From Melioribacteraceae bacterium (GTDB taxonomy: Bacteria > Bacteroidota > Ignavibacteria > Ignavibacteriales > Melioribacteraceae): 64,000 nt of DNA. This document shows, in pieces, positions 16,978 through 44,172 of the stretch (positions within the stretch are counted from its first letter, which is position 1; the number at the start of each line of letters is the position of its first letter). The DNA is taken from positions 1 through 64,000 of the forward strand of contig JAKIUC010000014.1 in the NCBI GenBank assembly GCA_021647785.1, read 5' to 3'. A program made the position numbers and the translations under genes. Below the pieces are notes generated by a model. The model was not told where the DNA came from. It saw nothing but the letters and a program-made list of their open reading frames with translations, and ran no database searches.

Positions 16978-18156
16978 ATGAAGAGAATAATTTTGTTTAT
17001 TTTGATTGCTTCAATAGTTATTGCACAAGAAGCTAATACCCCAAAAGATAAAGCACACACATTTTTAAGAGTTGGATATCAAGCAGGGGCTGTACTTCAA
17101 ACATCTGAATTTCTTCAAGGGGAAAATGCTACAGGAACTCCAGTAGATTATTTTCAATCTGCACGTTTAGAATTTGGATGGCAGACAAGCGGAAGCGCTG
17201 ATTGGCATCAAGTATTTAACAATCCGAGTTATGGTGTTGGACTTTATGGTGCTAACTTTTTTAATACTACAGAGATAGGTACTCCTTCTGCTATTTATGG
17301 ATTTTTTGATTGGCCATTTAAGCGTTATGAACAATCTGCAATTAGTGCCGAGTTTGGTTTTGGTATTGCTTACGATTGGCAGCCATTTGACCCAGATTCA
17401 AATCCATATAATTTAGTTATTGGTGCTGGTAGATCTGTTTACATTGATGTTGGTTTAAAATACACGTACCAAATTTCTCAACACCTTGATATCAGTGGTC
17501 AAATTTCATTTTCACACTTTTCAAATGGCTCAACTCAGCAGCCAAATGCCGGCATAAATTTGCTTTCGCCAAGGATTAACTTAGCATATAATTTTCAAGA
17601 TGAGCGTCCAATCTTTATCAAGCGTGAACTTCCTGAATTTATAACAGAATATGAGTTTACAACATCCCTTACATACGGTAGTAAAAGTCAAGTTTATAAT
17701 GTAATAAATCCACCCTCTAACTCTACTAAATTTGATAGTCTTAAAAGAGAATCGTTTGATGTTTTTGCATTTATTGCAACACTTAATAAACAAGTATCGT
17801 ATAACAGTAAGCTCGGACTTGGTGCAGAGGTTGAATATGACCCATCCTTAGGAGTAGAGTATGAATATAAAAATGGTGAAAAGAAAATAATTGATTCTGA
17901 CACTTCCGAGAAGGTTCGTATTGGAATTTTCGCACAATATTCATTAGTAATTAGTAAACTTGAAGGACTTATTGGAATGGGTTATTATGTAATGGGTGAA
18001 ACTTCAGGTTCAATAAAAAAGATGTACCAAAGACTTGGTGCTCGTTATTATATTTTTGATAATTTTTCTGCCGGATTAAATTTGCGATTCTATGATTTCT
18101 CTCGTGCTGACAATATGGAATTTAATATTGGATATAGATTTGATTTAGGTTTGTAA
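16978..18156 (+). CDS. outer-membrane beta-barrel, PagL-like acyloxyacyl hydrolase
   Basis: A 392-residue exported protein with a signal peptide (to about residue 16, ending IVIAQ). The middle contains SHFSNGSTQQPNAGINL, which matches the His-Ser-Asn active-site region of PagL lipid A 3-O-deacylases. The C-terminal half consists of alternating beta strands with aromatic girdles and ends in a hydrophobic strand (FNIGYRFDLGL), typical of barrels. It probably trims acyl chains from lipid A. It is longer than classical PagL, with an extra barrel-like C-terminal region of unknown role. Confidence 0.75.
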   Translation: MKRIILFILIASIVIAQEANTPKDKAHTFLRVGYQAGAVLQTSEFLQGENATGTPVDYFQSARLEFGWQTSGSADWHQVFNNPSYGVGLYGANFFNTTEIGTPSAIYGFFDWPFKRYEQSAISAEFGFGIAYDWQPFDPDSNPYNLVIGAGRSVYIDVGLKYTYQISQHLDISGQISFSHFSNGSTQQPNAGINLLSPRINLAYNFQDERPIFIKRELPEFITEYEFTTSLTYGSKSQVYNVINPPSNSTKFDSLKRESFDVFAFIATLNKQVSYNSKLGLGAEVEYDPSLGVEYEYKNGEKKIIDSDTSEKVRIGIFAQYSLVISKLEGLIGMGYYVMGETSGSIKKMYQRLGARYYIFDNFSAGLNLRFYDFSRADNMEFNIGYRFDLGL

Positions 18157-35474: not shown

Positions 35475-35567
35475 TTTGTGATTTGCTTTTCCTTTGAGGA
35501 TACCTTTGGTGCTAATTGTTATCCCGCTAAAAAAGAGCGGGACAGGTTTGATATTTTTAAAAACAGT
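35475..35567 (+). repeat. enlarged CRISPR repeat 1 (93 bp, two insertions)
   Basis: Compared with the 46-bp unit, 22 bp are inserted after position 15 (tandem mini-hairpins TCCTTTGAGGA and TACCTTTGGTG). A further 25 bp are inserted after position 26 (stem CCCGCT and AGCGGG around an A-rich loop, then ACAGGT). The flanking repeat parts are unchanged except for the first base. Confidence 0.9.
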
Positions 35568-35597
35568 CTTTTATGTTATAAACCAATTAATTGTTGC

Positions 35598-35689
35598 GTT
35601 GTGATTTGCTTTTCCTTTGAGGATACCTTTGGTGCTAATTGTTATCCCGCTAAAAAGAGCGGGACAGGTTTGATATTTTTAAAAACAGT
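35598..35689 (+). repeat. enlarged CRISPR repeat 2 (92 bp, two insertions)
   Basis: It carries the same two insertions at the same positions as repeat 1, with one A fewer in the hairpin loop of the second. This repeat supplies the tracrRNA-pairing handle for spacer 1 (35568-35597). Confidence 0.9.
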
Positions 35690-35720
35690 TTCACGGTTTT
35701 GTGGTACCCCGAAGTACTTG

Positions 35721-35788
35721 GTTGTGATTTGCTTTTCCTTTGAGGATACCTTTGGTGCTAATTGTTATTTGATATTTTTAAAAACAGT
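35721..35788 (+). repeat. enlarged CRISPR repeat 3 (68 bp, first insertion only)
   Basis: It carries only the 22-bp insertion after position 15 and is otherwise a standard repeat. It supplies the handle for spacer 2 (35690-35720) and is intermediate between repeats 1-2 and the 46-bp units that follow. Confidence 0.9.
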
Positions 35789-37308
35789 TCGCCAGGCTTT
35801 ACTAACTTAGCAACAACAGTTGTGATTTGCTTTCTAATTGTTATTTGATATTTTTAAAAACAGTCGCACATATTTTTTCAACCAACCTAAAGTTGTTGTG
35901 ATTTGCTTTCTAATTGTTATTTGATATTTTTAAAAACAGTGTACTCTATTTTATCCCACTGCAATTCTGTGTTGTGATTTGCTTTCTAATTGTTATTTGA
36001 TATTTTTAAAAACAGTAATTTGTTTAACGAGACTAATTCATCCTTAGTTGTGATTTGCTTTCTAATTGTTATTTGATATTTTTAAAAACAGTATCATTTG
36101 TTTTTATTGCATTTCTTAATATGTTGTGATTTGCTTTCTAATTGTTATTTGATATTTTTAAAAACAGTTTATCGCTGAACGATGTATAACTAAGGAGTGT
36201 TGTGATTTGCTTTCTAATTGTTATTTGATATTTTTAAAAACAGTTGCTTTGAAGGATATAAACGATACGTCTGTGTTGTGATTTGCTTTCTAATTGTTAT
36301 TTGATATTTTTAAAAACAGTTTTTTTTATCGGAGTATTTGTAGGCTATGTGTTGTGATTTGCTTTCTAATTGTTATTTGATATTTTTAAAAACAGTGCCC
36401 CAACCAAAAGCCAACTCACCATCATAGTTGTGATTTGCTTTCTAATTGTTATTTGATATTTTTAAAAACAGTGGCTCACGGTAATAACCTAATATCTTAT
36501 CTGTTGTGATTTGCTTTCTAATTGTTATTTGATATTTTTAAAAACAGTATTAGCTGTTGTGATTGATAGCTCTATGTCGTTGTGATTTGCTTTCTAATTG
36601 TTATTTGATATTTTTAAAAACAGTTATGGTTGATTTTGGTATTGAAAGTGGGTCGTTGTGATTTGCTTTCTAATTGTTATTTGATATTTTTAAAAACAGT
36701 AAGTTCATTCAGAATCAACGGCACTTGACAGTTGTGATTTGCTTTCTAATTGTTATTTGATATTTTTAAAAACAGTAAGTAGGTAATTAGCTACCATTTG
36801 TCAAGTGTTGTGATTTGCTTTCTAATTGTTATTTGATATTTTTAAAAACAGTTGTCTTAGTAATGTTAAGAAGTTGTTTAACGTTGTGATTTGCTTTCTA
36901 ATTGTTATTTGATATTTTTAAAAACAGTCCAATCGCTACAACAGACATCTCGTTTCAGGTTGTGATTTGCTTTCTAATTGTTATTTGTTATTTTTAAAAA
37001 CAGTAGCAGCCGTATTGGTATAACCTTCGCTGTGGTTGTGATTTGCTTTCTAATTGTTATTTGATATTTTTAAAAACAGTTCAGATCAACAACTTCCCAT
37101 TCGCCAATGTGTTGTGATTTGCTTTCTAATTGTTATTTGATATTTTTAAAAACAGTTGGGGCTCCTTACATGACTTCGAGCATCAGGTTGTGATTTGCTT
37201 TCTAATTGTTATTTGATATTTTTAAAAACAGTATTGCTACGAGAGAGACCTCTTTAAGTGCCGTTGTGATTTGCTTTCTAATTGTTATTTGATATTTTTA
37301 AAAACAGT

Positions 37309-37537
37309 AGACCCCTTGTTAAGCCCTTGTTTTATAAGGTGTTAGCTTGTTTTTAGGATTCAAAAAATGAAGCAATTTTCTAACTAAGATCTTTACTCAA
37401 ACTGTTTTTGGAACTCACACTTTCCTTAGGAATTCTCTGTAAGAGTCTCACAGACCTTTGGGAAAATCCCTCTCTTAAAAAGAGAGGGACTTTTGAGCTT
37501 CTGTTTTTGGAAAGAGTGCGGATTTTGGAATTATATT
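37309..37537. other. gap between CRISPR array and cas2
   Basis: The gap contains the dispersed motif CTCTGTAAGAGTCTCACAGA (37435-37454) and a CT-rich hairpin (37467-37489, TCCCTCTCTT with AAGAGAGGGA). The first 90 bases beside the last repeat are AT-rich and could be a leader. No ORF was recognised. Confidence 0.45.
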
Positions 37538-37911
<374 letters not shown>

Positions 37912-37919
37912 GTTTTAAA

Positions 37920-38297
37920 TTATTGTAAACATTTTAAGATGCTATTTTTTACATTAGCCAAATTATTTTCCACTTCCTTATTTGTAAAACGAATAACTTT
38001 TATTCCAAGTAGATTTACAATTTCTGTTCTTAGTTCATCATAATTCTTCTGTCGTTCATGGTAACCGCCATCTACTTCAATTACTAATTTCTTTTGATGA
38101 CAATAAAAATCAGCTATGTAAAATTTTTCCATACCTTCTAAATCATAAAATATTGGGAATTGTCTATTAATTTTTCTACCGTTTAATTTTCTATTTCTTA
38201 CAACTTCCCACATTATTTTTTCTGAATGAGTTGCATTTTTACGAAGTTCTCTGCAAAGTGTTTTTGCAATAAATCTTAGTTTATTATTTAAACTCAT
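37920..38297 (-). CDS. DUF559 nuclease-like protein inserted between cas1 and cas2
   Basis: A 125-residue DUF559 protein, related to the very-short-patch-repair/restriction-endonuclease-like fold. N-terminal LRKNATHSEKIMWEVVRNRK is the family hallmark. Catalytic-type residues appear in YIADFYCHQKKLVIEVDGG (Asp and Glu-x-Asp). C-terminal GIKVIRFTNKEVENN completes the fold. It is not a cas gene. It lies between CT-rich palindromes inside the cas operon, and a truncated second copy lies between cas1 and cas9, so it looks like a mobile passenger. Function is unknown. Confidence 0.85.
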   Translation of the reverse strand: MSLNNKLRFIAKTLCRELRKNATHSEKIMWEVVRNRKLNGRKINRQFPIFYDLEGMEKFYIADFYCHQKKLVIEVDGGYHERQKNYDELRTEIVNLLGIKVIRFTNKEVENNLANVKNSILKCLQ

Positions 38298-38408: not shown

Positions 38409-39317
38409 TCAAATTATTGGGTATAATACTTTTCTCTCTTCCCCTTGAAAACACTTAGCCAACGAAGCAGTAGTACGCTGCATAGCCACCATTAGCGGTC
38501 CGCATTTATCACCAACAGTTACATCCACAGTTGCAATAGATAATAACTGCTTTTTAATTGATGTGGACATTTCAGAAAAATCTTCACCACTCTCAACTAT
38601 TTCAACTACAATAGAATCAACAAAAGGTCTGTATGGTTCCATAATATCATCAGCAAGGCAGTAGGCATTGTATTTATTATGATGATGAATTCCAAGAGTT
38701 GGCAAAAGACCAGAGCCAACAAGGGAGCGAGCAACAATAGCACGTAGAATTGCATATCCATAGTTCAACAAATTGTTTGGTTCTGCTTCTTCTCTGCCAC
38801 GTTTAAAATCTGGGATATCGATAAAAATATTTGCCCAAAAATATGCTGCTGCACGTGCTTCGTAATTATCGGGGTCGCCAGAACGGACTTTCCTTGCCCA
38901 AGTTTTCATATTCCTTACTGCAACATCTCTATTGGTGAGTAGTGCTGCTTGATTTTTAATCTTAGCAGTAATTGTCTGCTTCCACAATTGTTTTTTTAAA
39001 GGAAACGATGCATTAATTTGAGCATTAAATTTTTCGCTCTGCAATGTGTTGCCATCCAGATTTAAGAGCAGACCATTTGGGTGATGAGTTCTATCGGATG
39101 TAATAACTGCAACATTATTTTCAAGGAGGGTAGATAGTAATGAATGTGAAATTGTTATTTGCGGATTCTCTAAAATCACAATTCCTATATCTTCTATTGG
39201 AATTGTGATAACCTCTTTCTCCTCTTCCCCTTTTTTTATTGGAAATTTTATAGTTAGCTGATTATCCTTTTTGCTCAAGTAAGCAGGATTGCTAAAGTTC
39301 AATGTGCGTTTAATCAT
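38409..39317 (-). CDS. cas1: CRISPR-associated integrase Cas1
   Basis: A 302-residue Cas1 of the type II style. The N-terminal beta domain includes EDIGIVILENPQITIS and LLENNVAVITSD. The C-terminal helical domain carries the metal-binding residues in YGYAILRAIVARSLV, the His of LGIHHHNKYN and the Asp/Glu of LADDIMEPYRPFVD. It joins new spacers to the array with Cas2. It comes after cas9 on the minus strand but is separated from it by about 350 bases holding a DUF559 remnant. Confidence 0.95.
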   Translation of the reverse strand: MIKRTLNFSNPAYLSKKDNQLTIKFPIKKGEEEKEVITIPIEDIGIVILENPQITISHSLLSTLLENNVAVITSDRTHHPNGLLLNLDGNTLQSEKFNAQINASFPLKKQLWKQTITAKIKNQAALLTNRDVAVRNMKTWARKVRSGDPDNYEARAAAYFWANIFIDIPDFKRGREEAEPNNLLNYGYAILRAIVARSLVGSGLLPTLGIHHHNKYNAYCLADDIMEPYRPFVDSIVVEIVESGEDFSEMSTSIKKQLLSIATVDVTVGDKCGPLMVAMQRTTASLAKCFQGEERKVLYPII

Positions 39318-39323
39318 TTGTAC

Positions 39324-39572
39324 CTACACTTTTATTATAAATAATTCCAAAATAATACCTCCTCCCCCAACCTTAAAAAAGATTGTTTTTAACTCCCTCT
39401 CCCTTTGGGAGAGGGCTGGGGTGAGGGGCTTTTTTCCAAGACAATATGAACCCTCACCGTGTATCTGCTTTCTACGGAGCGACTGCCAAAGTACCTTTTC
39501 TGTGTAAGTTGGGTTGTTGCGTAACTTTCGTCTTTTTGTCTTTTCTGATTTTTTGTTAAATATTATTGTCAT
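39324..39572 (-). pseudogene. truncated DUF559 gene between cas9 and cas1
   Basis: ATG at 39572 begins a reading frame whose first 45 residues (RRKLRNNPTYTEKVLWQSLR and onward) match the start of DUF559. The frame then runs into a CT-rich palindrome, translated as LTPALSQRERE, and the nuclease core is missing. The remainder is unlike any protein. It is best read as a DUF559 gene cut by a repeat element. Confidence 0.7.
39391..39432. repeat. CT-rich palindrome in the DUF559 remnant
   Basis: CCCTCTCCC and GGGAGAGGG form a stem around TTT, followed by CTGGGGTGAGGGG. It is the reverse-orientation relative of 38311-38340 and marks the point where homology to DUF559 stops. Confidence 0.6.
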
Positions 39573-39664: not shown

Positions 39665-42600
39665 CTAATATTCCCCAACTTTTACAATTTGTCCTAAATG
39701 GTTTATGCGAACTTTTACTATCCCTTCTAAATCAGGCAAAGCTTTTATTGGGATATAGGTTGTTCTTTTCAAAACTAAATCTTTATTGCTAGATGTATCT
39801 AAATGATGTCGAAAAACGTAATCTCTTATTGCATTACTACCATACACTACTTTTGATAAAGTCTGCACTCTAAACAAATATGGGCTAATCAAAAAAGCAT
39901 TATCCTGATTTTCCAAATCAATTTCATCAGGGTTAAATTCATCTGATGGGAAAACAAAATACTCATTCTGTTTCATTGTAAATAAAAACTCCCAACCATT
40001 TTTGCTTTTATCTATTATAGGTAGGTTTTCTTTTACTCTCCACACAGCTTGGTAAAAAGAAACAACCTCATCTTGTAACTTTCCATCTTCATCTCTGTAT
40101 ATAGCTACATGGTGGTTGTTTCCAGTACTTATAAAATCAACTGGTTGTTTCTCTCCATTTTTATCTAAAATTAATTCTCCAAAATGATTTTTTTTATCAT
40201 GAATAGGTTCTGCGTTGCTAACTCCTTTTATTGTAACTCTTTTTATTGCAATACCCTTATCTTTATTGAGCCAAATAGGGTTTTCATCAAGATTTATAAA
40301 CGCTTTCTTTGCATCGCCACCAAACTCATCTAATCTGTTTTGTAAAATTTGTTGTACACCAACATCTATTACTTTATCAATTTTTATATCAGGTGATATC
40401 CCCTTTCGTATAGTATAGTTAAGCTCACTCCAAACTAATTTTACTTTTTCAGGAAGTTTAATGTTTTTTTCTTTATCAATATAAACAGGATTCTTGCCTG
40501 GTGAATTTACACCACCAAATGCTTTCTTAGGGTTGTTATCAAATTCAGCTAATCTAATTAATAATGCTTCACGATACTTTTTGTTTGCCACTTGCTTAAT
40601 TTTTTCTAAATCGAATTTAGTTCCAACTTTCTCATCTTTGGTTTCGTACTGTGTGATTTTTCCATAAACAGTCTCCTTATGCAATTGACCACGTGGAGTT
40701 AATTCAATCTTTGTTTTGTACTTCTCTTTCCCCTTAATTTTTATTTTATTTTTATTGCGAGTAACAACTTTGTTCTTTGCTTTAAAAGAGACTAAAATAG
40801 AATTAAGATGTTTCTTTGCTTCTTCCCTGAATTCATGCAATGGCATTGGTGGTTTAAATAGTAATTTGTTTTTATCATTTCTATAGAGATATTTTTGTTC
40901 AATTCCATAAACCTCGTGATATTTGTTATGCCTTTCATTTCCACGTGCACTCATATTATTTAAGTACTGAATATGTGCATACGAAGTAAATGCCACAGTT
41001 AAAGCATCCATTGCATGATGCCGATGGTCGTTCCGTTTTGTCCAATCTTTAATTCTTTTTTCTATCTGACCTTGTTTACCTTCGATATCCTCTACTAAAT
41101 CCAACTTTTCATATTTTGGTAAGTTTATTTCTTTCATAACATTTATGATTTGCCAATCTTCACGTAAACGATTCGTTACACTACCAGTAGTGGTATTGAC
41201 TTTCCTAACAACTTCACTTAACATTTGTACAGCTTTTTTTGCAATGTACTGACTGTTCCGCAAATCACGGTCAATAAAACCATCTGGAATTTCGGAATTT
41301 TTCATTTTAAGCTTATTGTATTTAGCTTTACTGATATTCCCTTTTTTGTATAACCTTTCAATTCTTGATAAGTAATTTTCAAATTCCTCTTTGCTTAATT
41401 TTTTTATTAAAAAATCAAATGCGGTTTCATTTCCCTTTTCAATATTAATATCTCTTGCAGATAAGGTTTTGTTCGAGAAAGAATCATCAAATAGTTTTGC
41501 TTGTGGAATTATATGTTCAATATCAAATTTCTTTGAAAAGAGTTCTTCCTTTGGCACATATGTAGATGTGTAGAGTGTTTTGAAACCGTTGCTTTCCAGT
41601 TCTTTCCAAAGTTTATAGCGGATAATATCATTCCGAGTAACTTTGCTAATTCCAAAATCTGTTCTTAAAATTTTTCTAATTTTTTCATGAGCAGCAGTTG
41701 CCTCTCTAATTCCTTTTGTTTTTTCTTCTCTTTCTTTTGCACTCTTTTTTAAATCTCTTGCTAATTCCACCCTTATTTCATCAGGCTTTCCAAGATTTTC
41801 ATCAATAATAATTGCATTTACAACATTTACCATTTGATTTAATATTTTCTCTACAATTGGATTCCGCAAAGAGTTTTTAGGAAGTAATTCTAATTTATCC
41901 ATCAACTCCCTTGTTTCAACTTCCTCTTTTGTTAAAGATTTAGAATGATTGTAGTTAGCTAATGCACATGCTTCATCATAAGTGTTTCCCTCTTTTAAAT
42001 AAGGTAATATTTTACGAATTGCTCTTGCAGAGAGGTTGCCATAACCATCTTGTAATGATATACTTGCAATTAGTTTTGCATATTCTTTTTTGAATCCAAA
42101 TTTTTTCTCCAATTGTTCTATTAATCTATCCTCTTCAATGGCAGAATAGAGCAGGTGCCAAAGTTGCATTATTGGCTGTTTATCAAAATCGTTTCCTTCC
42201 ACATCAGAATAAAAATTTAATATGTCTGTCGATATTCCAATTTGAGTAAATTTTTCTTTAACAATTTCTATTACTTCATTTGTATTCATTTTAGAAAAAT
42301 CATATTCCACACCTTCATATTCAAGAATTTTTTGATATGCTTTAAATAATTCCGAGTTAGTTCTATTGCCTTCAACTTTTTCAAAGTTTAGTTCAAAATC
42401 TTTGGGATTATCTACAATTAATTTTAAAAAATCTTTTTGAGACAATTGTCCTTTTTGATAAAGTTTTTCGAAAGCATGGTCTTTTACTTCCTGTTCAAGA
42501 GAAGCTATCTCTCCTGTAGTTTTATCTGTTAAAATTACATTATTTAAATTTTGCCATATTCTAAACTCTTGAAATAATGGAGAAGATTTTGGAATTACTC

Positions 42601-43807
42601 TATGTCCAATAATTCTTTTTCTTTTCTTTTCAAGTTTATCATCAAAATATTCTTCCTCCCAACTTTCAAATTCACAAAAACTGAGTAGCCCTTTTTGAGA
42701 TTTTAGTGGACGCTGATAAAATATTATCACATCTCTAATTTCTGTTTTTAATTTATCGGTTAATTCAGGATAAAATTCTTTTTGCTTTTCCCAAATAGCC
42801 TCAAATTCATCTAAATAATCTTGCCTGTAAAAAACTTGATTTTTTAACCTTGTATGTGGGTTACTCTCTAATTGCTTAAAAAGATACTCGCCAACTGTCA
42901 ATTTATTAAAATAGAGTTCTTTGCTTCTGTCACTAATTTCTCCAAGATATCCACTTGAATTATTAATTAGTGCATTTATTTCTTGTAAAACTATTGCAAG
43001 TTGTTCTAATTTTAATTTTTCTTTTGTTCCGCTTACTCTCAACCTATATTTTTCAATCTTTTGTTCTTCTCTGTTCCCTTTTATATTAATTCCCTTAATA
43101 CCAAATGGCTTTTCACAAATCTTCCAAGTTGCTCCTTTATTTTTGCCCTTAATATCTTCCTTTAATTTTTCAGTAAGTATTTCCATATAAAACTGTTTTT
43201 GAAACTCCCAAGTTTTATCAAGTTCATTCTGTAAATCTGACCTATAAAATTCTGGGATATATTTTTTCCCTTTCTTTAATAACTCGTACACATATTGTCC
43301 TGGTGTAATATTATTTTCATAGAGTTGCTTTGCAACATCCATTCCATCAATAGCACTTCCTTCATCATCTGATTTTGCTTTTCTACTACTTTTGTACCCA
43401 CGCTTTTTATTAATCTGAAACAAAACTTTTGATAAATCTTCTTTGCTAATTTTTGTGTGTACTGCTATTGCTCTATTTCTGTATGTAGAGAAAGTTGTGT
43501 CTTTCCCAGATTCATTAAGAATGTTTTTTTCTACAATAAAATTACTTTCTCTTAAAATTTTTATTAACGCATCACGTCGTATTTGATATCTGTCAAGATT
43601 ACGTCTTGCCCCACGTTTTAATGTTCTATCTGCATTTATTGATATTGATTTCCCTTTTTGAAAGTCATTCTCCTCATCAGTTGAAATCGGAATTATCCTA
43701 ACACCAAGTTTAACAATAGAAGATTTTTCATCATCATTCTCTGCCTCATTAACAAAAGCCCAACCAATGGATGTTGTACCAATGTCCAATCCCAATATTC
43801 TTTTCAT
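39665..43807 (-). CDS. cas9: CRISPR-associated endonuclease Cas9 (type II-C)
   Basis: A 1380-residue Cas9 with all nuclease parts. RuvC-I LGLDIGTTSIGWAF holds the catalytic Asp8. The Arg-rich bridge helix (RTLKRGARRNLDRYQIRR) is near residues 61-80. RuvC-II (IRVELARDLK) is near 679. The HNH domain has FDIEHIIPQAKLF near 762 and SNKTL. RuvC-III has HHAMDALTVAF near 932. The C-terminal 400 residues should bind the PAM. Size fits the larger Bacteroidota II-C proteins. Only cas1 and cas2 accompany it, with no csn2 or cas4, which makes the locus II-C. AGGAAAAAATATT precedes the ATG. Confidence 0.97.
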   Translation of the reverse strand: MKRILGLDIGTTSIGWAFVNEAENDDEKSSIVKLGVRIIPISTDEENDFQKGKSISINADRTLKRGARRNLDRYQIRRDALIKILRESNFIVEKNILNESGKDTTFSTYRNRAIAVHTKISKEDLSKVLFQINKKRGYKSSRKAKSDDEGSAIDGMDVAKQLYENNITPGQYVYELLKKGKKYIPEFYRSDLQNELDKTWEFQKQFYMEILTEKLKEDIKGKNKGATWKICEKPFGIKGINIKGNREEQKIEKYRLRVSGTKEKLKLEQLAIVLQEINALINNSSGYLGEISDRSKELYFNKLTVGEYLFKQLESNPHTRLKNQVFYRQDYLDEFEAIWEKQKEFYPELTDKLKTEIRDVIIFYQRPLKSQKGLLSFCEFESWEEEYFDDKLEKKRKRIIGHRVIPKSSPLFQEFRIWQNLNNVILTDKTTGEIASLEQEVKDHAFEKLYQKGQLSQKDFLKLIVDNPKDFELNFEKVEGNRTNSELFKAYQKILEYEGVEYDFSKMNTNEVIEIVKEKFTQIGISTDILNFYSDVEGNDFDKQPIMQLWHLLYSAIEEDRLIEQLEKKFGFKKEYAKLIASISLQDGYGNLSARAIRKILPYLKEGNTYDEACALANYNHSKSLTKEEVETRELMDKLELLPKNSLRNPIVEKILNQMVNVVNAIIIDENLGKPDEIRVELARDLKKSAKEREEKTKGIREATAAHEKIRKILRTDFGISKVTRNDIIRYKLWKELESNGFKTLYTSTYVPKEELFSKKFDIEHIIPQAKLFDDSFSNKTLSARDINIEKGNETAFDFLIKKLSKEEFENYLSRIERLYKKGNISKAKYNKLKMKNSEIPDGFIDRDLRNSQYIAKKAVQMLSEVVRKVNTTTGSVTNRLREDWQIINVMKEINLPKYEKLDLVEDIEGKQGQIEKRIKDWTKRNDHRHHAMDALTVAFTSYAHIQYLNNMSARGNERHNKYHEVYGIEQKYLYRNDKNKLLFKPPMPLHEFREEAKKHLNSILVSFKAKNKVVTRNKNKIKIKGKEKYKTKIELTPRGQLHKETVYGKITQYETKDEKVGTKFDLEKIKQVANKKYREALLIRLAEFDNNPKKAFGGVNSPGKNPVYIDKEKNIKLPEKVKLVWSELNYTIRKGISPDIKIDKVIDVGVQQILQNRLDEFGGDAKKAFINLDENPIWLNKDKGIAIKRVTIKGVSNAEPIHDKKNHFGELILDKNGEKQPVDFISTGNNHHVAIYRDEDGKLQDEVVSFYQAVWRVKENLPIIDKSKNGWEFLFTMKQNEYFVFPSDEFNPDEIDLENQDNAFLISPYLFRVQTLSKVVYGSNAIRDYVFRHHLDTSSNKDLVLKRTTYIPIKALPDLEGIVKVRINHLGQIVKVGEY

Positions 43808-44172
43808 AATATTTTTTCCTTTTATTTATTCAATTTATTTTATAGTTTCCTATTAACAATTAGAAGCAAATCACAATAAGGATTATTCCGTTGTGAAAAC
43901 ATTTAAAGCGGTTTATCATTCGATGAATCGCTTTCTTATTTTAAAGTTCTTTTTTTTTGAATAATGTGCAATTTAAAACCCTCATACATTGTTATTTTAT
44001 ATTTTTTAAGTTAAGTAAGTTACTTTCAATTTACAAGCCTTCTATACACAACTCATATTAATAGTTTAATAACCTATTCGCACTACTATAATTAAACCAA
44101 ACATTTAATTTGATTCACTAACAACATTTTTATAACTTCATTTTAACAATAATCAAATTAATAGGAATTAAA
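43808..44172. other. 365-base region between cas9 and the YbjQ gene, holding the tracrRNA
   Basis: The left part contains the tracrRNA (43854-43958), transcribed away from cas9. The right part (43960-44172) is AT-rich without a recognised element, apart from an AGGAATTAAA ribosome-binding site for the YbjQ-family gene. The cas9 promoter must overlap the tracrRNA region on the other strand. Confidence 0.6.
43854..43958 (+). ncRNA. tracrRNA
   Basis: The anti-repeat at 43854-43876 (TAACAATTAGAAGCAAATCA and onward) is complementary to repeat positions 2-25, with one repeat T (of positions 13-15) left as a bulge. It is followed by AAGGATTATTCCGTTGTGAA, the nexus style of Bacteroidota II-C tracrRNAs. 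Then comes a stem-loop (AAAGCGGTTTATC with GATGAATCGCTTT, 43906-43935) and a terminal T run (43950-43958). The RNA is on the strand opposite cas9. The 5' end is estimated from the complementarity. Confidence 0.88.

Follow-up and report, generated by a model that had tools for sequence, protein, structure and literature searches.

The CRISPR array of the window (the whole stretch of 64,000 nucleotides from a Melioribacteraceae contig) begins with three long repeats of stepwise decreasing length, which looks like an alteration of the oldest repeats in an ordinary type II-C array, not like a repeat growing in use. We consider it probable that palindromic elements were inserted into old-end repeats after the acquisition of these repeats and were then copied from one repeat to another. 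Different inserts, most of them able to form hairpins, occur at the same few sites in at least seven related arrays, which argues for a recurrent change at the old end.

An earlier note on this DNA had described twenty 46-bp repeats preceded, at the cas-distal end, by repeats of 93, 92 and 68 bp, and spacers of 30-31 bp; both descriptions proved correct. The spacer length is 30 bp in 21 of 22 cases, S2 (35690-35720), which lies between the enlarged R2 and R3, being 31 bp. We inferred the plus strand as the crRNA orientation, in which the GTTGTG end of the repeat comes first and pairs with the tracrRNA anti-repeat. The features of the locus are the following.

35475..37308, plus strand: CRISPR array, type II-C, 23 repeats and 22 spacers
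35475..35567, plus strand: R1, 93 bp, with both inserts and first base T, taken as the oldest (extra) repeat
35490..35511, plus strand: insert 1 in R1 (alignment, folding), 22 bp, foldable as two tandem 11-nt mini-hairpins
35522..35546, plus strand: insert 2 in R1 (alignment, folding), 25 bp, hairpin CCCGCT...AGCGGG plus ACAGG
35598..35689, plus strand: R2, 92 bp, with both inserts (35613-35634 and 35645-35668)
35721..35788, plus strand: R3, 68 bp, with insert 1 only (35736-35757)
35819..37308, plus strand: R4-R23, twenty repeats of 46 bp
37309..37380, plus strand: leader beside cas2, with the motif TTAGGATTCAAAAAA at 37353-37367, 44 bp from the last repeat; the leader end given is provisional
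37538..37873, minus strand: cas2
38409..39317, minus strand: cas1, type II (cas1_NMENI)
39665..43807, minus strand: cas9, 1380 aa
43854..43959, plus strand: predicted tracrRNA upstream of cas9, ends estimated by eye, anti-repeat at 43854-43877

The altered repeats of the window are restricted to the leader-distal end (R1-R3 of 23), as is typical of degenerate terminal repeats, and a single base is substituted in one of the twenty 46-bp repeats (36959). The first nucleotide is T in R1 and G in R2 and R3; the outermost repeat of the related genome G004 shares this T (35475 in the window) in place of G. The locus was assigned to type II-C by the presence of cas9, cas1 and cas2 without csn2 or cas4 among the five locus proteins scanned, small ORFs overlapping cas9 on the opposite strand having been left aside, and by a predicted tracrRNA with an anti-repeat near cas9. 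A gene for a DUF559 protein resides between cas1 and cas2 (37920-38297), and a DUF559 fragment just below the Pfam cut-off lies between cas9 and cas1 (39324-39572).

Conservation and gene order place the leader on the side of cas2, downstream of the repeats in the sense of their transcription, as in other type II-C systems. Of 28 arrays flagged as having a readable 3' flank, G114 was set aside because its fetched piece ends inside the array; in 20 of the other 27 the motif TTAGGATTAAAAAAA, with at most three substitutions, follows the last repeat at a distance of 43-45 bp. In the 28 pieces with upstream sequence, the same scan never placed it ahead of the array. The seven readable leaders in which it was not found are all outside the order of the window; a looser scan flagged one upstream flank, that of G093. 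Gene order agrees, as cas2 stands just past the last repeat on the opposite strand in all 23 pieces with a tblastn match, the remaining 8 of the 31 array pieces searched having none. The cas2-side flank is similar in the window and in its congeners G001 and G004 (AGACCCCTTGTTAAG...), and the cas-distal flank of the window has almost nothing in common with theirs. Repeats with point mutations occur at the end opposite cas2 and the leader in G134, G023, G077 and G209, and the first repeat is shortened to 37 bp in G134, 31 bp in G123 and 33 bp in G205. Excerpts of two published studies point the same way: new spacers of the II-C system of Riemerella, a member of the Bacteroidota, enter between cas2 and the array (PMC6008519), and the II-C arrays of F. 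columnare are transcribed towards their variable end (PMC8092290).

With the leader motif and cas2 on the other side, and with spacer insertion on the cas2 side in Riemerella, R1-R3 would be the oldest repeats of the array, a conclusion drawn from sequence and from analogy. The earlier note had favoured a leader at the cas-distal end. Flank conservation, gene order and the acquisition published for other II-C systems all speak against that placement, and it is rejected; the point-mutated or shortened terminal repeats of relatives are cas-distal as well. The idea built upon it, that the inserts were inherited by later acquisitions while the repeat remained in use, finds no support, since the long repeats appear to be the oldest ones. 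The proposal to find old spacers shared with relatives did not help either, because none of the 22 window spacers is common to G001 or G004 at up to four substitutions.

The same note's view that the long repeats grew from 46 bp by insertion is borne out. Both congeners, G001 with 23 repeats and G004 with 20 repeats on two contigs, contain 46-bp repeats only, identical to that of the window but for the last base. Since both are uniformly 46 bp and the tracrRNA matches the uninterrupted form, the available sequences support 46 bp as the ancestral form and the changes as insertions. Sequential losses, the fallback of the note, are not favoured, as they would need two exact, scar-free excisions to the sequence of the congeners. 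In G001 (G001:C74), Cas1 and Cas2 are about 80% identical to those of the window and the Cas9 match reaches only 37% over part of its length, as if cas9 had been exchanged while the 46-bp repeat (but for its last base) and the leader stayed common to both. A 45-mer of the plain repeat matched genome contigs only in records of G001 and G004, and an exact 37-mer across insert 1 matched none, own-genome records possibly being left out of both searches. Viral contigs gave no match to the plain 45-mer, to an exact 30-mer across insert 1 or to exact 25-mers of S1-S3.

Alignment shows insert 1 as 22 bp after repeat nt 15, identical across R1, R2 and R3, and insert 2 as 25 bp in R1 and 24 bp in R2 after nt 25, the difference being one A in an A-run. 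The 19-base core of insert 1 has three copies in the 4.25-Mb genome at up to two mismatches, all of them within R1-R3, which excludes chance as the origin of the long repeats. A dispersed repeat or REP family was considered for insert 1 and ruled out, as its core has no further genomic copy. Insert 2 is a member of a dispersed family whose pattern has 33 matches in the window genome, against 0 for a control pattern. Both array copies have a private T that occurs in none of the other 31 family matches. Members of this family have ACAGG at their end (CCTGT on the opposite strand, where insert 2 begins CCTGTCCCG), and neither end of insert 2 carries the GTAG or CGTC tag by which REP elements are recognized. 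Among 30 copies read, a T precedes the element in 25, including both array copies, and no clear target motif surrounds them. Across the phylum, GTTGTGATTTGCTTTCCS was found in 2 of 395 genomes, both previously known.

On folding, 11 of 18 inserts surpassed at least 95% of 300 mononucleotide shuffles in stability. The other seven include insert 1 of the window (fraction 0.25), whose description as palindromic therefore depends on its position and its two mini-hairpins. Y1 transposases of the REP/IS200 type (PF01797) were found in 14 of 14 genomes tested and in 5 of 14 control genomes, with 6 matches, fragments included, in the window genome. In G023 (G023:C52, contig 17370-17717), a PF01797 match and the leader end of the array are some 660 bp apart.

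The anti-repeat is predicted to pair with nt 1-25 of the uninterrupted 46-bp repeat at -30.3 kcal/mol. Insert site 1 coincides with the single unpaired repeat nucleotide of this predicted duplex (nt 13-15, depending on the fold), and insert site 2 with its distal end. When insert 1 is left unpaired, the predicted duplex weakens to -25.4 kcal/mol; when it is folded on itself, the predicted complex, at -30.9 kcal/mol, is as stable as without the insert. Nine of the 13 tracrRNAs recognised by eye are one base short for pairing the GCTTT of the repeat. The predicted duplex leaves repeat nt 13 unpaired in seven of these nine (G000, G004, G115, G134, G055, G056 and G095) and nt 16 in G113, and in G012 pairing ends at nt 15. 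The gap is absent in the other four (G001, G023, G107 and G008). The repeat consensuses of G064 and G113 in this comparison were borrowed from relatives. The repeat may also contain a promoter of the Bacteroidota type, with TTTG at nt 8-11 and TATTTTT at nt 31-37. Inserts at sites 1 and 2 would then divide it; insert 1 carries a TTTG of its own, 18 nt ahead of TATTTTT.

We searched for related arrays with the 16-mer GTTGTGATTTGCTTTC in 391 genomes sampled across the class, of which 41 matched and 32, including the window's own, were fetched. The nine left out of fetching were G213, G237, G249, G255, G260, G357, G363, G384 and G430, so that the large arrays of G249 and G255 are outside the survey. 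A Cas9 search of 164 genomes of the order matched 20. The repeat survey comprised 35 array pieces and 560 repeats (a hand sum), with G114 counted in part (46 repeat starts in its piece) and G034, with one truncated repeat, outside it; one long repeat each in G117 and G015 proved to be a run of N and was dropped. Different old-end inserts occur in seven further arrays of the class (G115, G114, G093, G012, G015, G271 and G273), so that, by hand tally and counting that of the window, 8 of the 27 arrays whose old end can be seen have such inserts. In G115, R1 carries a 28-bp insert and R2 a different 29-bp insert at the same site. R1 of G114 contains three inserts, the middle of which, CCCGTAAAAAGCACGGGACAAG before TTTGATA, corresponds in kind, orientation and place to insert 2 of the window. 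Two inserts are found in R1 of G093, two in G012 and one in G015, where the inserts of the last two arrays are degenerate and have ambiguous borders. G271 has two inserts in R1 and one of those two in R2, a nested staircase built of inserts unrelated to those of the window.

G273 carries several inserts and differs in their arrangement. With R1 taken as the first repeat whose start is intact (beyond it are two degenerate repeats that also bear inserts), R1 and R4 contain an identical 53-bp insert that is missing from R2 and R3, and its genome holds exactly two copies at up to three mismatches, both in the array. R1 and R4 retain their own flanking variants, TTGTTC and TTTTTC, which indicates that only a short tract moved. 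Enlarged repeats scattered without order, which according to the earlier note would refute its stepwise series, are thus present in a relative of the same class, not in a related strain. The outermost G273 repeat contains a diverged relative of the 53-bp insert with paired changes that, by eye, preserve the stems, hinting at structure-preserving divergence.

Counting copies once, 15 insertion events fall at nt 14-16 (nine), before or at TTTGA (four) and near nt 36 (two). The binomial probability of at least nine of 15 in a given 3-nt window is P ~9e-8, for a 3-nt window chosen after the fact. Outside these events, the two outermost G273 repeats, the outermost G056 repeat and a solitary G152 repeat seem by eye to bear inserts. 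Every anchored long repeat holds the first, second or third place in its array, and in the relatives the first or second, with the exception of one G273 repeat, the fifth of 12. Spacers adjoining insert-bearing repeats are mostly about 30 bp long, S1 of G114 measuring 86 bp.

We propose that short, mostly palindromic, REP-like elements would have entered the R1-R3 region after those repeats had been made, presumably insert 1 at nt 15 first and insert 2 at nt 25 second. Copying to neighbours, which we infer to be short-tract gene conversion or template switching between near-identical repeats, would leave both inserts in R1 and R2, one in R3 and none from R4 on. A single insertion followed by copying is favoured by the G273 pair, by the confinement of the insert 1 core to the array and by the private T of insert 2. 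The identical insert in non-adjacent repeats of G273 also means that inheritance through acquisition is not a general explanation. In the window, the copied tract would have excluded the repeat end, given the T at nt 1 of R1 and the G in R2 and R3. As to the source of mobility, REP-type transposases are our guess. The effect at the old end would presumably be near-neutral, possibly with less crRNA or extraneous crRNA made from R1-R3. A more far-reaching version, which we put forward tentatively and do not expect to hold in full, is that palindromic elements repeatedly colonise II-C repeats at fixed sites (the duplex bulge at nt 13-15 and the duplex end), fold out of the duplex and spread along the old end as repeat-specific parasites that are tolerated or as hairpins retained for silencing the extraneous crRNA and the oldest crRNAs.

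The perfect nesting of inserts from the oldest repeat inward, in the window and in G271, would be matched equally by polar inheritance, in which a founding repeat with both inserts later lost insert 2 and then insert 1 exactly. The leader adjoining cas2 fits this course, as do the old-end blocks of common point variants in related arrays (neighbouring old repeats share them in G023 and G134), a pattern usually made by acquisition. We nevertheless regard it as unlikely, because both inserts would have to be gained and then excised again without a scar, back to the 46 bp of the congeners, no short direct repeats flanking the inserts were seen by eye, and neither the skipped repeats of G273 nor the differing R1 and R2 inserts of G115 fit. 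The growth envisaged in the earlier note could be transferred to a secondary site at the old end, where Cas1-Cas2 would have duplicated R1 with a new spacer after it gained insert 1, and duplicated it a second time after it gained insert 2. Such ectopic acquisition would yield the exact order observed, and the sole 31-bp spacer of the 22 lies between R2 and R3. However, a 31-bp spacer was also among the 24 unique new ones of ordinary acquisition in Riemerella (PMC6008519). A duplicate of R1 should keep the first base T, except where duplication begins at nt 2, the window has hardly any cas-distal flank sequence in common with G001 and G004, and the G273 pattern stays unexplained, so that we deem this course quite improbable. 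Taken alone, the window leaves room for both.

Independent entry of one element into each repeat at a shared hotspot, with no copying, would agree with the strong site preference and with the Y1 transposases of the genomes tested, which are also present in some controls. The insert 1 core and the 53-bp insert of G273 have no copy outside arrays, and the array copies of insert 2 share their private T, all of which makes it very doubtful. An assembly artefact might be suspected in a draft genome of 99 contigs and 4.25 Mb. It is scarcely credible, since unique spacers lie on both sides of every long repeat and old-end repeats of a similar kind are present in seven further genomes, of which G012 is a single-contig assembly. 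A selected function, with hairpins that block extraneous crRNA or insulate or silence the oldest spacers, concerns why the inserts persist, and could coexist with insertion and copying. The first II-C repeat is the source of extraneous crRNA and, in the excerpted text of PMC12080349, is mutated in 60% of arrays, and insert 1, if unpaired, splits the repeat:tracrRNA duplex at the energetic cost given above. Yet the self-folded insert leaves the predicted complex as stable as before, and R2 and R3 serve real spacers; we consider selection possible, on balance not probable.

CRISPR arrays are read as dated records, and changes in their repeats are taken to mark the order of acquisition. The stepwise variants at the old end described here arose, most likely, through insertion and exchange between repeats, and repeat variants of this origin can mislead the dating of arrays and the calling of their direction. 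Fixed sites, differing sequences and recurrence in several families raise the question whether DNA targeting or the crRNA:tracrRNA structure decides where inserts are tolerated. If the colonisation of repeats by palindromes is real, mobile palindromes would edit a CRISPR array without spacer acquisition.

Palindromic elements of Rickettsia insert into functional sequence, where they may be tolerated by folding out; here it is CRISPR repeats that are entered, at sites that recur. The open-licence PMC literature gave no description of this pattern of insertions or palindromes in CRISPR repeats, and within the open literature searched the nearest known case is the mutated extra repeat of II-C arrays, site-specific and mostly palindromic inserts common to several repeats appearing to be undescribed. 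REP elements with REP-associated tyrosine transposases, as outlined in sections of PMC3733652, are short dispersed palindromes, some of them within other palindromes. Insert 2 resembles them in belonging to a dispersed family in a genome with Y1 transposases, and differs in its missing tag and in being known here from sequence alone. CRISPRDetect, in the relevant passage of its description, notes insertions in CRISPR repeats propagated by duplication (PMC4869251), whereas acquisition cannot explain propagation in general here, as G273 shows, and the inserts are site-specific and mostly hairpin-forming. The closest likeness is to the mutated extra (oldest) repeats of II-C arrays and their control of extraneous crRNA (Feussner et al., 2025; PMC12080349), cited here from portions of the article: the subtype and the array end are the same, and the standard repeat:tracrRNA pairing is lost in the oldest repeat. 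The first repeat of C. jejuni has a changed first nucleotide, A, where the window and G004 have T. Mutations, terminators and guide hairpins are treated in those portions, and the arrays described here add inserts of 15-95 bp at fixed sites, with copies in several repeats.
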